Part shown: one piece after another, positions 4,589 through 35,659 of the stretch
How positions within the stretch are numbered: the stretch's first letter is position 1
How the letters are laid out: each line of letters begins with the position of its first letter
Assembly: GCA_017624835.1 (NCBI GenBank)
Contig: JAGAMG010000017.1
Coordinates: 1-37,580 of the forward strand
Source of the DNA: Lachnospiraceae bacterium
Lineage (GTDB): Bacteria; Bacillota; Clostridia; Lachnospirales; Lachnospiraceae
Direction of reading: 5' to 3'
Length of the DNA: 37,580 nt
The notes under the pieces: model-generated
What the model was told of the DNA's origin: nothing
What the model saw: the letters and a program-made list of their open reading frames with translations, nothing else
Databases searched by the model: none
Program-made: the position numbers and the translations under genes

Positions 4589-5638
4589 ATGTATTCTTCT
4601 TATACGGCAGTGCATTGGTTGTTTTTCTTTTATTTTTATTGCTTTTTCGGATGGTGCTTTGAATCTACATATGTATCTTTGAAATGTAAGCGTCTGGTAA
4701 ACAGAGGATTTATGAGAGGACCTTTTTTGCCGCTGTATGGCAGTGGAGCAATTATGATGCTGTTGGTGTCCATGCCCTTTCAGGAGAATCTGTTTTTAGT
4801 TTATGTGGTGGGCTGTATTGGTGCCACTGTTTTGGAGTATGTAACAGGTGTTGCCATGGAAGCCATATTTAAGGTGAGATATTGGGATTATTCCAATCAG
4901 AGGTTTCATTTTCAAGGTCATATTTGTCTAAGCTCTTCTTTGGCATGGGGGGTTTTGACCATTCTGATGACGGAGTGGATGCACAAGCCCGTGGAGCGTT
5001 TTGCCATGGGAATACCCTTATCAATATTGACTGTATTTATTATGATTGTAACGGCAATTGTATGTGCAGACTTTGCCCTTTCCTTTAAGGCTGCCCTTGA
5101 CCTGAGAGATGTGCTTATCAAGATGGAAAAGGCGAAGCAGGAGCTTATGCATGTACAGAAGCGTTTGGATGTAATTATTGCTTTAACCAATGAGGAACTG
5201 GCGGCGCGGAAGGAAGCATTGTCTGAAAGCTTAACGCAACGTAAAGAAGAGTGGAATGAGAACATCGAGGAACACCTCGAGAAAATGGAGAATCGCGTAG
5301 AAAAGATAGAAAATCATGTAGATGAAATGCGAGAACGCGTGGAGCTTCGAGTGGATGAATTAAAAGGAAATATTGAGGATAGATTACAGGGAATCCGTAA
5401 GCTTATACAAAACGGAGAGTATAAGAGGTTGGAAAATCTGCGTGAGGAACTGTTTGAGTTAAAGCATAAATATATGGGTATCTTGGAAGAGAGGGAGCGC
5501 TTAAGCCGTTTAAGAGGTTTCTTCCAACGAGATATGTTGCGTGCCCATCCAACCATGAGTTCTTCAAAATTCCGTGAGGCTTTGGAAGAATTGAAGGAGA
5601 AGGCAGCGCAGCGTTTAGAGAAGGATAGTGAAGAATAA
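4589..5638 (+). CDS. PF06541 (putative ABC-transporter type IV) membrane protein with long coiled coil
   Basis: A 349-residue protein. Residues ~1-170 carry about five membrane helices of the PF06541 family (FFGWCFESTYVSL, NRGFMRGPFLPLYGSGA, EYVTGVAMEAIF, RYWDYSNQRFHFQGHICL), found widely in Clostridia and labelled putative ABC transporter permease although no transport has been shown. Residues ~175-345 are highly charged and heptad-like, with repeats such as EKMENRVEKIENHVDEM and EKAAQRLEKDSEE, so a long cytoplasmic coiled coil is predicted. GGGAGG at 4575-4580 serves the ATG. A strong hairpin with a T run follows the stop. A small paralogue of the membrane domain is encoded at 12695-13186 on the other strand. 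Confidence 0.82.
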   Translation: MYSSYTAVHWLFFFYFYCFFGWCFESTYVSLKCKRLVNRGFMRGPFLPLYGSGAIMMLLVSMPFQENLFLVYVVGCIGATVLEYVTGVAMEAIFKVRYWDYSNQRFHFQGHICLSSSLAWGVLTILMTEWMHKPVERFAMGIPLSILTVFIMIVTAIVCADFALSFKAALDLRDVLIKMEKAKQELMHVQKRLDVIIALTNEELAARKEALSESLTQRKEEWNENIEEHLEKMENRVEKIENHVDEMRERVELRVDELKGNIEDRLQGIRKLIQNGEYKRLENLREELFELKHKYMGILEERERLSRLRGFFQRDMLRAHPTMSSSKFREALEELKEKAAQRLEKDSEE

Positions 5639-5687: not shown

Positions 5688-5764
5688 TAATCAAATCTTA
5701 AACTTTTCCCTTATTTTTTGTTAAAACATTATTTGCTAAGATAGACCCATAGAGGAGGCGGAAT

Positions 5765-6454
5765 ATGTACAATATACTGATTTGTGATGATGAAAAGGAT
5801 ATCGTAAATGCTTTAAAGATTTATCTTTACGATTCCAATTATACTTTATTTGAAGCTTACAACGGCAAGGAAGCACTTGGAATTATCCGAAATAATGAGA
5901 TTCACCTGGTACTGATGGATATTATGATGCCGGAAATGGATGGGATTGAGGCAATGGTAAAGATTCGGGAGATTAGTAATGTTCCTGTGATTTTGCTTAC
6001 TGCCAAAAGTGAGGACTCGGATAAGATTCTGGGGCTTACTGTGGGGGCGGACGATTACATTACCAAGCCCTTTAATCCTGTGGAGGTTGCGGCAAGGGTA
6101 AAATCTCAGCTTCGCAGGTATATGCAGCTTGGCGGTGGAAATGTCCGTTCGGAGGTAATGCGGGTAGGTGGCATTGAATTGGATGATAAGGAAAAGACCG
6201 TTACCTTGGATGGGGAACCGGTAGCACTTACCCCTACGGAATATGATATTTTGAAGCTGCTGATGCAAAATCCCGGTCAGGTGTTTTCACCCAAGGAAAT
6301 CTACACCAAAATCTGGAATGATTTGCCCTATGGAAGTGAAAATACAGTAGCGGTACATATTCGACATCTTCGTGAGAAACTGGAAATTAACCCTGCAGAG
6401 CCAAGATACATCAAGGTGGTCTGGGGACAGGGGTACAAATGTGAGAAGATTTGA
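5765..6454 (+). CDS. OmpR/PhoB-family response regulator
   Basis: A 229-residue two-domain response regulator. The receiver domain shows the acidic pocket ICDDE (D8, D9), phosphoacceptor D52 in LVLMDIMMPEMDG, and the conserved lysine in DDYITKPF. The C-terminal ~100 residues are a winged-helix DNA-binding domain (LTPTEYDILKLLMQNPGQVF, VAVHIRHLREKLE, YIKVVWGQGYK). GGAGG at 5755 gives a strong ribosome binding site. The cognate histidine kinase begins 10 bp after the stop, so the pair is one operon. The kind resembles VanR-type regulators of Clostridia that respond to envelope stress, but the target genes cannot be told from here. Confidence 0.95.
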   Translation: MYNILICDDEKDIVNALKIYLYDSNYTLFEAYNGKEALGIIRNNEIHLVLMDIMMPEMDGIEAMVKIREISNVPVILLTAKSEDSDKILGLTVGADDYITKPFNPVEVAARVKSQLRRYMQLGGGNVRSEVMRVGGIELDDKEKTVTLDGEPVALTPTEYDILKLLMQNPGQVFSPKEIYTKIWNDLPYGSENTVAVHIRHLREKLEINPAEPRYIKVVWGQGYKCEKI

Positions 6455-25941: not shown

Positions 25942-26403
25942 GGGTGGGTTCTCCTGTGTGTTTTTGTTGTGGGGCGTGCCTACGCTGCGCTGGGCACGGT
26001 TGAATGGTGCGCGCACTTCCGCTGCGCTGGGCGCGCGGAATGGTTGAGGCGCGCCTGCGCTGCGCTGGGCGCGGTTGAATGGTGCGCGCACTTCCGCTGC
26101 GCTTAGTGCGCTGGGGAGTGGGGAGGGGTGAATGTTCCGCTCACCGCGCCATTCGCAAAGCCGCACCTGCGGTGCTCTCCGCTGCTTCGCAGCTATCTTT
26201 GCTCATAAGAAGGCGCTCCTTCCATAGTCTGTATCAGTGGCAAATTCATGCGAGCATGATTTGCCACTGGTACAGACTATGGATGAGCTGGTAAATTAAA
26301 TTATACCTCTCTTCCGGCTTGCTATCAAGTTTGTTTTGGTATAAGATATTAATTAAATGATATTGTGGCTATAGTATTGCTGCAGGAGAAAGGATAAAAT
26401 AAA
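25942..26403. repeat. Repeat-rich intergenic region: GC-rich 75-bp repeats and hairpins
   Basis: This 462-bp gap is unlike its surroundings. From 25981 to 26103 it is very GC-rich: a 48-bp block (25981-26028) recurs with two changes at 26056-26103, a 75-bp period, with GCGCGC-rich sequence between. Small perfect hairpins follow (GCACC TGC GGTGC near 26164; GCTGC TTC GCAGC near 26181). Then comes a large inverted repeat (26221-26283, listed separately) and an A+T-rich leader to pheA. Base composition and repetition suggest an inserted genome-wide repeat element. No T-box or other known riboswitch is seen. Confidence 0.75.
26221..26283. repeat. Large inverted repeat upstream of pheA
   Basis: TCCATAGTCTGTA at the left end matches the reverse complement of TACAGACTATGGA at the right end; inside, CAGTGGCAAA pairs with TTTGCCACTG and CATGC with GCATG. 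The stem is about 29 bp with one G-T pair and one bulge, and the loop is only GA. Neither strand has a T run directly after it, so it is not a simple terminator. It could be a MITE-like or REP-like element or an mRNA structure. Confidence 0.9.
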
Positions 26404-33590: not shown

Positions 33591-33631
33591 GCCAAAGTAG
33601 GATATTAAGCGACTAAGGATGGCATAAAGTG

Positions 33632-34282
33632 ATGAAGAAGGCAGTTATTTTTGATTTGGACGGAACCCTATCGGATTCCATTAATAGTATAAAATATTGT
33701 GGAGATAGGGCGCTGGCACCTTTTGGGATTGGTCCCTTTGAGACAAAGCAGTATTGTTATTTTGTAGGGGATGGTGCCGCCAATCTGGTAAAGAGAGCTT
33801 TGATTGCCGGAGGGGATGAAGAGCTTGTGCATTTTGAGGAGGCATTTTCCCTGTATAAGGAAATCTTTAGGGACAATTGTATGTATCAGGTAAAACCCTA
33901 TGATGGGATCAGGGAATTGCTTGCCAAATTAAAGGAAGCAGGGGTAAAAATAGCGGTGCTTTCCAATAAACCCCATGTGGAAACCATCCGTGTAATTGAG
34001 ACCCTGTTTGGCAAGGAGTATTTTGATGTAATACAGGGACAAAAGGAAGGAGTTGCCATTAAGCCAAGCCCGGAAGGAGCATTTCAGGTTTTAGAGCAGC
34101 TTTCTTTGTCCCCGGAAGAAATTCTGTATCTGGGGGATACCGCTACCGATATGAAGACCGGAAAGGGTGCAGGAGCCTTTACAGTTGGTGCACTCTGGGG
34201 GTTTCGAGAGCGCCGGGAACTGGAGGAAAGCCATGCAGATGCCATTATTGGGCATCCGTTGGAGTTATTGGAGTACTTGTAG
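33632..34282 (+). CDS. HAD-family phosphatase (phosphoglycolate phosphatase-like)
   Basis: About 216 residues, a HAD hydrolase with cap domain. Motif I is IFDLDGTLSDS, motif II VLSNKP, motif III KPSPEGAF, motif IV LGDTATDM. The overall form resembles Gph/PpaX-type phosphatases, which remove phosphate from phosphoglycolate or pyrophosphate; substrate not proven. A GTG at 33629 and the ATG at 33632 are both possible starts; AAGGA is at 33615-33619. It ends the cluster that began at pheA, before the tandem repeat array. Confidence 0.9.
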   Translation: MKKAVIFDLDGTLSDSINSIKYCGDRALAPFGIGPFETKQYCYFVGDGAANLVKRALIAGGDEELVHFEEAFSLYKEIFRDNCMYQVKPYDGIRELLAKLKEAGVKIAVLSNKPHVETIRVIETLFGKEYFDVIQGQKEGVAIKPSPEGAFQVLEQLSLSPEEILYLGDTATDMKTGKGAGAFTVGALWGFRERRELEESHADAIIGHPLELLEYL

Positions 34283-34705
34283 TGGTATATTGGTAATAGA
34301 ACTTCTTAAATAGAGAAGAAAGTTACCAATTTTATTGAAGGAAATATGTAAAAATTGGTAAGTGATGAAGATGCTTTACCAATATAGAAGTAGAAAAGCA
34401 TAAAAAGTTGGTAAAGTATGAAGCAAGTATACCAACCTAGAAGTGAGAAAAGCATAAAAATTGGTAAAGTATGAAGCAAGTATACCAAGTTAGAAGTGAG
34501 AAAAGCATAAAAGTTGGTAAAGGACAAAGCAAGTATACCAACCTGAAAGTAGAAAAGCAAAAAAAGTTGGTATCAAGTGAAGAATACATACCAACTTAAA
34601 ATCGGAAAATAACCAACAGGTTGGTAAAATGCCAAGAAACTCTCAAAAGCAAGTAATTGATAAATGTAATATGGTAAGGCGATAACAGATAGGAGATGGG
34701 AAGCT
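34283..34705. repeat. Tandem array of 53-bp units, each with a TTGGTA-N16-TACCAA dyad, upstream of yvcK
   Basis: Units start at 34355, 34408, 34461, 34514 and 34567, exactly 53 bp apart, with a sixth half-unit at 34621. Each begins with a 28-bp block whose ends are TTGGTA and TACCAA, and continues with a conserved ~25-bp A-rich part (AGAAGTGAGAAAAGCATAAA). A looser copy, ATTGGTAA-N26-TTACCAAT, lies just before at 34289-34330. The second and third units differ in only a few bases; the outer ones diverge more. No gene is credible here: 53 is not a multiple of three and the reverse open frame is low complexity. Confidence 0.95.
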
Positions 34706-35659
34706 ATGAAGAGAAAAGTAGTAGTGTTAGGCGGTGGAACCGGTTCTTCCACACTTCTGCGAGGATTAAAGGAATTTCCATTAGATATAACAGCAATTGT
34801 TTCCGTATGTGATGATGGCAGCAGTACGGGAGTGCTGCGGGAAGAGTTTAGCATTCCGGCTGTGGGAGATATTCGAAGAGTATTGATTGCTTTATCTGAG
34901 ACAGAGCCTTTGGTAATGAAGCTATTTAATTATCGTTTTCATACGACCAGTGATTTGGACGGACATACCGTGGGCAATCTTTTACTTACGGCATCCTCTG
35001 AAATTACAGGAAATCTGTCCGATGGGATTGAGGCTTTAAGTAAAGTGTTTAACTTGAAAGGAAAAGTAGTGCCGTTGACAGAGGATAATGTGGTTTTGAT
35101 GGGAGAAATGTCGGACGGAAGTATTATTGAAGGGGAGCATCATATTACCCAGAACCATAATGGAATCAAGCGAGTTTTTTATAAGGAGAATCCCATGCCT
35201 ACCAGGGAAGCTATCAAGGCATTGGAGGAGGCTGACTTAATTTTGCTCAGTATGGGAAGTGTATTTACCAGCATTATTCCTAATTTGATTTGTGATGAAA
35301 TATTGGATGCCATTGATAGAAGTAATGGTAAGATTATGTATGTCTGCAATATGGTAACGCAGCCCGGAGAAACAGAAGGCTTTAAGGTGTCCGACCATAT
35401 CAAATTATTGAATCAATATCTCGGAAAACGTAAGATTGATGTAGTCATTGCCAACAGTGGAGAAATTGATGAGAATATGGCAAAACGGTACGAATCTCTG
35501 GAGCAAAAAGACCCGGTAGAATTAGACAAAGAAGAAACAGAAAATCTGGTGGAACGGTTGATTTGTGATGATTATGTAACGGTAAAAAATAATTTGTTGC
35601 GTCATAATGTATTGAAGCTTGGTATGCATATATTCGGGTATATGCTGGAGCAGAAGTAA
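34706..35659 (+). CDS. yvcK: YvcK/CofD-family gluconeogenesis factor
   Basis: A 317-residue CofD-like protein. The N-terminal nucleotide-binding loop VVVLGGGTGSSTLLRGLKEF is followed by VCDDGSSTGVLREEFSIPAVGDIRRVL, HTVGNLLL and the C-terminal ICNMVTQPGET-like block (YVCNMVTQPGETEGFKVSDHI). In Bacillus YvcK binds UDP-sugars and affects cell-wall precursor supply on gluconeogenic carbon. GGAGATGG precedes the ATG. The usual neighbours rapZ and whiA are not here. A repeat array lies directly upstream and an inverted repeat directly downstream. Confidence 0.95.
   Translation: MKRKVVVLGGGTGSSTLLRGLKEFPLDITAIVSVCDDGSSTGVLREEFSIPAVGDIRRVLIALSETEPLVMKLFNYRFHTTSDLDGHTVGNLLLTASSEITGNLSDGIEALSKVFNLKGKVVPLTEDNVVLMGEMSDGSIIEGEHHITQNHNGIKRVFYKENPMPTREAIKALEEADLILLSMGSVFTSIIPNLICDEILDAIDRSNGKIMYVCNMVTQPGETEGFKVSDHIKLLNQYLGKRKIDVVIANSGEIDENMAKRYESLEQKDPVELDKEETENLVERLICDDYVTVKNNLLRHNVLKLGMHIFGYMLEQK

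Follow-up and report, generated by a model that had tools for sequence, protein, structure and literature searches.

The intergenic region between a HAD-family hydrolase gene and a YvcK/CofD-family gene of a Lachnospiraceae bacterium carries a tandem array of 53-bp units with inverted arms, lying in a stretch of 37,580 nucleotides (the whole of which is hereafter referred to as the window), which raises the question of whether so regular an array is a local switch for yvcK, a landing site for a protein with a wider role, an RNA element or a neutral repeat. A dyad search of the window with TTGGTA-N16-TACCAA and 0 mismatches returned five dyads at a step of 53 bp (Table 1), and TRF reported a period of 53 bp with 85% matches at 34349-34572, which bears out the five full units of exact period described in the first-pass annotation. 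With ≤2 mismatches the window yields nine dyad matches, whereas 100 shuffles average 2.0 and peak at 6; the array consists of the five exact dyads, and the dyads of its two middle units (units 2 and 3) are identical. The edges had been described as a half unit and a looser flanking copy. The looser copy is indeed found on the left, 66 bp ahead of the first regular unit, whereas on the right the TTGG at 34621 lies one base off phase and the pattern decays beyond it. Both ends of the array are bounded by a joining segment (CCAA at 34326, TTGG at 34621), and the array can thus equally be read as six CCAAY-N23-RTTGG dyads. The yvcK gene lies 111 bp downstream. No Rfam family was found in the window at gathering score, and a promoter scan of the yvcK strand found no promoter-like site.

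Table 1. Array dyads and flanking genes in the window, numbered from the first nucleotide of the whole stretch.
Feature	Positions	Strand	Basis
HAD-family hydrolase gene, upstream, co-directional	33629..34282	+	Pfam PF13419
Loose left-edge dyad TTGGTAA-N26-TTACCAA, outside the 53-bp phase	34289..34328	+	Read from sequence
Joining dyad 1, CCAAY-N23-RTTGG type (CCAAT...ATTGG)	34326..34358	+	Read from sequence
Unit dyad 1, TTGGTA-N16-TACCAA	34355..34382	+	0 mismatches
Joining dyad 2	34379..34411	+	Read from sequence
Unit dyad 2, TTGGTA-N16-TACCAA	34408..34435	+	0 mismatches
Joining dyad 3	34432..34464	+	Read from sequence
Unit dyad 3, TTGGTA-N16-TACCAA	34461..34488	+	0 mismatches
Joining dyad 4	34485..34517	+	Read from sequence
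Unit dyad 4, TTGGTA-N16-TACCAA	34514..34541	+	0 mismatches
Joining dyad 5	34538..34570	+	Read from sequence
Unit dyad 5, TTGGTA-N16-TACCAA	34567..34594	+	0 mismatches
Joining dyad 6, one base longer	34591..34624	+	Read from sequence
YvcK/CofD family gene, downstream, co-directional	34706..35659	+	Pfam PF01933

Other features of the window were recorded alongside the array. YvcK was not found in 15 members of the genus, and matches of 39-45% were obtained in four of nine genomes from the order's other families; the gene may have been acquired here, or the genus may have lost it or carry a strongly diverged form. A 54-bp/18-bp repeat (41-210) precedes a short CobW_C-like ORF and a cobW-family gene, and a minus-strand DUF5050 ORF begins with a 37-bp tandem repeat (25972-26103).

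Searching the source genome (GCA_017624835.1; 2.93 Mb in 55 contigs, 84.8% complete, 0.53% contamination) with the two-unit pattern TTGG-N20-CCAA-N25-TTGG-N20-CCAA and ≤2 mismatches gave 45 matches, and the reversed pattern gave 0. Nine arrays were identified on nine contigs (C1, C11, which is the window, C23, C33, C37, C39, C45, C47 and C49), totalling about 51 units. In a spacing-free scan for the dyad, neighbours less than 1 kb apart occurred, among the matches listed, only at multiples of 53. Single sites outside arrays look rare in this genome: the site pattern, which detects only six of the nine arrays, has 32 matches, of which 31 fall within arrays. The sole exact dyad lying apart from the arrays, at C47:2327, has no array around it and was excluded. 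Three of the array loci hold other short purine-rich tandem repeats in the same intergenic region (L022, about 5120-5290; L028, about 5690-5940; L026, about 5900-5990), with units such as CCGAAGAAGTCTTAAG and GCTGAGATAAG.

The same unit was then traced in a scan of 84,980 species, one genome per species, in which contigs below 3 kb were absent and the source genome was possibly not included. The 30 stretches obtained are distributed over ten other assemblies, of which nine bear the title Lachnospiraceae and the tenth Clostridiales. All ten are metagenome-assembled, and the hosts named in some of their titles are deer, goat and sheep. Eight carry the same site, one (E04__bin383) carries a CTTGGC/GCCAAG variant at 53 bp, and one (RUG14246) is ambiguous, its locus L046 holding a distinct 53-bp tandem repeat with TTTGGAAG/CTTCCAAA arms at 5-191. 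Two-unit counts with ≤1 mismatch in the ten assemblies were 53, 17, 13, 10, 6, 4, 3, 3, 2 and 2, with a control of 0 in each. E04__bin383 and RUG14246 were left out of the unit statistics, and the rows for L038 (variant half-site), L046 (ambiguous repeat) and L029 (no array) were dropped, the analysis covering 37 loci, nine from the source genome and 28 from other assemblies. R4203 contributes 11 of these loci, in which the pairs L053/L055 and L032/L048 share array units at contig ends and are probably two sides of one array, so that it has fewer than 11 arrays.

A consensus derived from 44 arrays and sub-arrays (180 units), and again from the 37 loci (211 joining dyads), reads CCAAY-n-AAA-n5-GAAAA-n5-AAWW-n-RTTGG on the purine-rich strand, followed by a 20-bp spacer, and holds about 32 bits per 53 bp. 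The 25-bp joining segments had been noted as conserved in the window, and across the 37 loci the joining dyad, which is centred on an A-tract, is in fact more ordered than the unit dyad and the most ordered part of the repeat. RTTGG and CCAAY half-sites alternate in orientation at 24 and 29 bp, RTTGG-to-RTTGG distances peak at 53, 106, 159 and 212, and 147 of 172 pairs of successive joining dyads ≤120 bp apart are spaced at 53 bp, with ten more at 52 or 54, in loci that had themselves been selected by a 53-bp pattern. Runs contain from 2 to 12 units. Most of the twelve arrays displayed begin and end in a joining dyad; L022 begins with a unit dyad and L048 is truncated by the contig end. Since 53 bp is about 5 x 10.6, we infer that all dyads lie on one face of the helix. 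Intrinsic curvature imposed by the A-tracts was considered and set aside, the 10.6-bp rhythm being faint: helical phasing of A+T within the unit is weak (P about 0.01-0.04), with the strongest harmonic elsewhere and a better fit near 9.5 bp.

Carriers are scattered. Two of 61 genomes in a genus sample matched, namely the source genome and one whose only match lies in a direct repeat of two copies that differs in sequence, and two of 397 in a family sample, the source genome and (by coordinates) SIG299. On a GroEL tree of 29 rows, built from 29 of 30 loci with the fragment G108 excluded and ten rows labelled as carriers, the carrier label requires four changes, a value not reached in 500 shuffles (mean 8.5), and only two of the changes are forced by well-supported branches. 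TRF found no 53-bp array in 400 kb of one complete genus relative, or about 10% of its chromosome. At the density of the source genome a stretch of this length should hold about one array, which makes this a weak test for a different half-site in the genus. Viral contigs gave no match to the exact three-unit pattern, and a second pattern matched one stretch, inside a predicted ORF and without tandem repeat, that was taken as chance. A blastn search of plasmids and phages with the window array gave no match.

Comparison of the array loci indicates that the core of the unit outlasts its interior. Outside the core, units of the same array have an identity of 0.63, units from different arrays of a genome 0.456 and units from different genomes 0.385, compared with 0.33 for shuffled sequence, so the arrays are not recent copies of one element, while half-sites, A-tracts and the 53-bp period are kept even as unit interiors diverge strongly between arrays. 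The base beside RTTGG leans to one type per genome (A/T in 33 of 35 for SIG299; T/A in 16 of 18 for R1692; G/C in 38 of 65 for R4203, with T/A in 13; T/A in only 25 of 53 for the source genome), as if a putative binder had shifted its specificity. One array locus is common to R4203 and R5355, with flanks of 82-90% DNA identity apart from one patch of 72%, and there the non-core units are only 0.427 identical, the interiors having been replaced with core and period kept. For the R4203 copy, seven of ten other R4203 loci are closer, at 0.45-0.56 among the loci listed; the nearest arrays to the R5355 copy (L035) are in other genomes, and within-genome homogenisation is therefore not general. Both species also retain, in the interval from infA to the array, a stretch of partial conservation that contains long complementary segments (L035, 6366-6690; L049, 5072-5530) and is possibly an uncharacterised structured element.

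Elsewhere, arrays are present in one genome and missing at the same place in another. Sequence of R5355 matching six other R4203 array flanks (64-95% protein identity) showed no array within about 1.5 kb on each side, some flanks being comparable on one side only, and held one isolated dyad. At L025 the source genome has a five-unit array where two relatives have a short gap between the same two genes, and no array was present in 12 stretches that cover, in four relatives, at least one side of six source array loci. In close relatives homology at the groES region stops about 40 bp ahead of the first unit dyad of the source array, and no such dyad was found in the groES stretches examined in 29 other genomes, comprising genus relatives and other carriers. 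The first-pass annotation had proposed that a dyad absent from all relatives, with copy changes that do not preserve the arms, would mark a neutral minisatellite. The outcome is mixed, as the genus relatives examined are without arrays and carriers in several lineages preserve arms and period; the latter argues against a neutral minisatellite.

The arrays lie between genes, with a called ORF overlapping part of the array in 4 of 37 loci, and the flanking genes scanned (23 in the source genome and 20 in other genomes) are mostly unrelated. The eight further arrays of the source genome adjoin a His_biosynth-family gene and FBPase; htrA-like and clpX-like genes; groESL and a MatE gene; a phospholipid-methyltransferase-like gene; NUDIX and CAAX-protease genes; a response regulator; TraX and TetR genes; and a chemotaxis receptor. 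MatE transporters recur as neighbours, at three loci. Orthologues of the genes beside seven of the nine arrays map to 1.29, 2.17, 2.33, 2.54, 2.66, 3.40 and 3.78 Mb of the 4.08-Mb complete chromosome of a relative, which stands in for the source genome's own gene positions and in which the skew flips near 2 Mb. Nine arrays between unrelated genes, together with those of scattered relatives, point to putative protein landing sites rather than to a local yvcK switch. Among individual neighbours, a PHP-domain gene lies beside the arrays of L035 (5123-5884) and L057 (3840-4673), with an orthologue near L049 (2264-3031), in three genomes in all, and a streptomycin adenylyltransferase match (PF04439) is found near the array of L051 (5726-6610; assembly RGIG4203).

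The arrays are also strand-oriented. The upstream gene has the purine-rich strand as its sense strand in 26 of 29 cases, as does the downstream gene in 29 of 33, and the richer strand exceeds 0.65 purine in 28 of 37 arrays, compared with 1 of 46 control intergenic stretches. Co-directional flanks are the norm, being found in 198 of 220 control gene pairs, and 19 of 25 arrays have both flanks in the sense direction. When orientation is assigned with a leave-one-out profile, 35 of 37 arrays point in the direction given by local GC skew; the two exceptions are near-symmetric, as are three of the 35. L025, the sole array between genes that are lagging-strand by orthology, has no clear orientation. 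Gene direction and replication direction cannot be separated here as the cause of array orientation.

An RNA with serial hairpins had been among the initial proposals, and pairing was examined in both stems. Within arrays, double changes restore a Watson-Crick pair in 8 of 23 cases for the unit stem, where shuffles average 8.8 of 22.9, and in 3 of 19 for the joining stem, where they average 4.6 of 16.8. With G-U included the values are 12 (shuffled 12.2) and 10 (7.4, a level reached in 148 of 1000 shuffles), and a slightly different count of the joining stem gives 7 of 16. Sense-strand mismatches, summed over four variable stem positions, comprise 53 G-U and 51 A-C. Across arrays the arms of the unit do match better than shuffled partners, at 0.68 versus 0.31 for the base beside RTTGG and 0.63 versus 0.42 for the next inner base, which is read as a mark of genome-specific half-sites; a hairpin would give the same. 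An edge dyad of L049, AGTCGGGC...GCCCGACT, looks compensatory. The window array folds better than its shuffles, with z of -5.3 for the sense strand and -7.1 for the antisense strand. Promoter and terminator scans gave no counts clearly above shuffles; long-stem hairpins were missed by these scans, and three were folded instead. A terminator-like hairpin lies after the arrays of L023 and L027 and before that of L022, the L025 array falls between two genes that are closely spaced in relatives, and the L028 array is upstream of the groES region, a variety of placement that does not fit one RNA role.

We compared the arrays with known repeat systems. Integron attC sites have R-boxes of the consensus RYYYAAC/GTTRRRY, and the R4203 half-sites ACCCAAC...GTTGGGT fit it; the arrays differ in lacking gene cassettes, in their 53-bp spacing and in that most source-genome half-sites fall outside the attC consensus, and none of 15 genomes searched had an integron integrase above the cut-off. 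A CRISPR array was rejected, since adjacent units are alike throughout (0.63-0.69 outside the core), with no alternation of identical repeats and unrelated spacers. BOX, RUP and similar small interspersed repeats have defined modules and high similarity between copies, whereas the 53-bp arrays share core and period only. Like the arrays, these pneumococcal elements are short intergenic repeat families of a low-GC Gram-positive (PMC3049150). The centromere-like site of the F plasmid, parS_F (sopC), bound by ParB_F (SopB), is described as twelve 43-bp repeats with ten 16-bp inverted repeats (PMC6238139), and thus resembles the arrays as fixed-length tandem repeats holding inverted repeats at fixed spacing. 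The 53-bp arrays nevertheless have another period, half-site and dyad spacing, are absent in most relatives, and are scattered over the chromosome, as the orthologue positions between 1.29 and 3.78 Mb in the relative indicate, where ParB/parS sites cluster near the replication origin or sit on a plasmid. No partition gene was present among the 43 neighbouring genes scanned. A literature search by titles and abstract openings, in a collection with few subscription papers, listed nothing on such arrays in Lachnospiraceae.

Several explanations can be weighed against these observations. A transcribed RNA element, whose serial hairpins with purine-rich loops would act in untranslated regions on mRNA stability or as a protein scaffold, draws on the purine-rich sense strand, the matching arms, the folding of the window array and the L049 dyad; we consider it improbable, given that compensatory changes within arrays do not exceed shuffles, G-U is about as common as A-C, the antisense strand folds better, the L022 array follows a terminator-like hairpin and the window has no Rfam match. 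The regulatory platform for yvcK envisaged in the first-pass annotation was not supported, and an operator array for this one gene now seems scarcely credible: proximity and co-directional genes speak for it, but such gene direction is usual in control pairs too, many unrelated genes have a similar array beside them, and the scan of the yvcK strand found no promoter-like site. Expansion by slippage without function would account for the identical middle dyads, the variable copy number and the company of other purine-rich tandem repeats in the source genome. Such a neutral minisatellite is very improbable and already hard to hold, because half-sites, A-tracts and period recur at unrelated loci in nine assemblies including the source, with controls at 0, and because the sole orthologous array pair kept core and period through replacement of its interiors.

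The main rival, which we regard as possible without favouring it, is a selfish or domesticated repeat of REP/BIME type, in which a transposase-like enzyme would spread palindromes via single-stranded DNA on the lagging-strand template, slippage would keep them in tandem and the conserved core would be the enzyme's recognition site. BIMEs are described as alternating, regularly spaced palindromic units between genes, REPs are also found singly and as doublets, and REPs and BIMEs bind several proteins, with BIME-2 binding DNA gyrase (PMC2817692). The arrays share the dispersed palindromic units, regular spacing, alternating half-sites and intergenic placement, and their strand orientation and sporadic distribution, with compared loci of relatives lacking the array, fit as well. 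They differ in their fixed period, in an orientation that follows GC skew, in arrays of one genome that are not near copies, in the rarity of single sites, as far as a pattern that sees six of nine arrays can tell, and in number, as REP/BIME copies usually exceed 100 per genome with singles and doublets included. No GTAG-type head stands out in the consensus. Y1_Tnp (PF01797; RAYT/IS200 family), the transposase expected in the genome alongside such repeats, had no match in six of the ten carriers searched, the source genome and the array-richest among them, though it matched in four, the assemblies being incomplete.

The reading that we consider best, at a probability of about 0.5, is that the arrays are ordered, strand-oriented binding platforms for a putative clade-specific DNA-binding protein. 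The initial proposal of a phased-dyad protein-binding array thus survives in its general form, as half-sites and the 53-bp period are kept across diverging arrays, and loses its tie to yvcK. A dedicated protein, as a dimer or higher oligomer, would read the half-sites as DNA; the 53-bp period would place successive sites on one face, copies would bind side by side, and the result would be one ordered, directional nucleoprotein platform. Its role would more likely be chromosome-level, in organisation or at the boundaries of replication or transcription units, than the regulation of a single gene, because neighbours differ and arrays occur in 3' regions, upstream of genes and between two genes that are closely spaced in relatives. 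Arrays would arise and expand by unit turnover, with selection for binding keeping core and phase. The sporadic distribution counts against this binding-platform reading, since a purely structural role would then be dispensable. It is rather unlikely, in our estimate, that the arrays go further and form chromosome-wide, replication-oriented 'satellites', at which a clade-specific binder of fast-evolving half-site specificity (mostly CGTTGG, AGTTGG or TGTTGG per genome) would build directional nucleoprotein blocks that organise the chromosome or mark boundaries; they would then correspond, in bacteria, to the chromosome landmarks that repeats form, with gain and loss at individual loci.

Site arrays with precise phasing and strand orientation thus form a dispersed family in scattered Lachnospiraceae, and the enzymes that explain comparable repeats were not matched in many carriers, six of ten being without a transposase match and none with an integrase over the cut-off. 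If the arrays are selfish, they would represent a repeat family spreading without RAYT in several hosts. If a dedicated protein reads them, it becomes possible to test a new way in which bacterial chromosomes are organised or partitioned, and either way a two-unit fragment provides a defined bait sequence.
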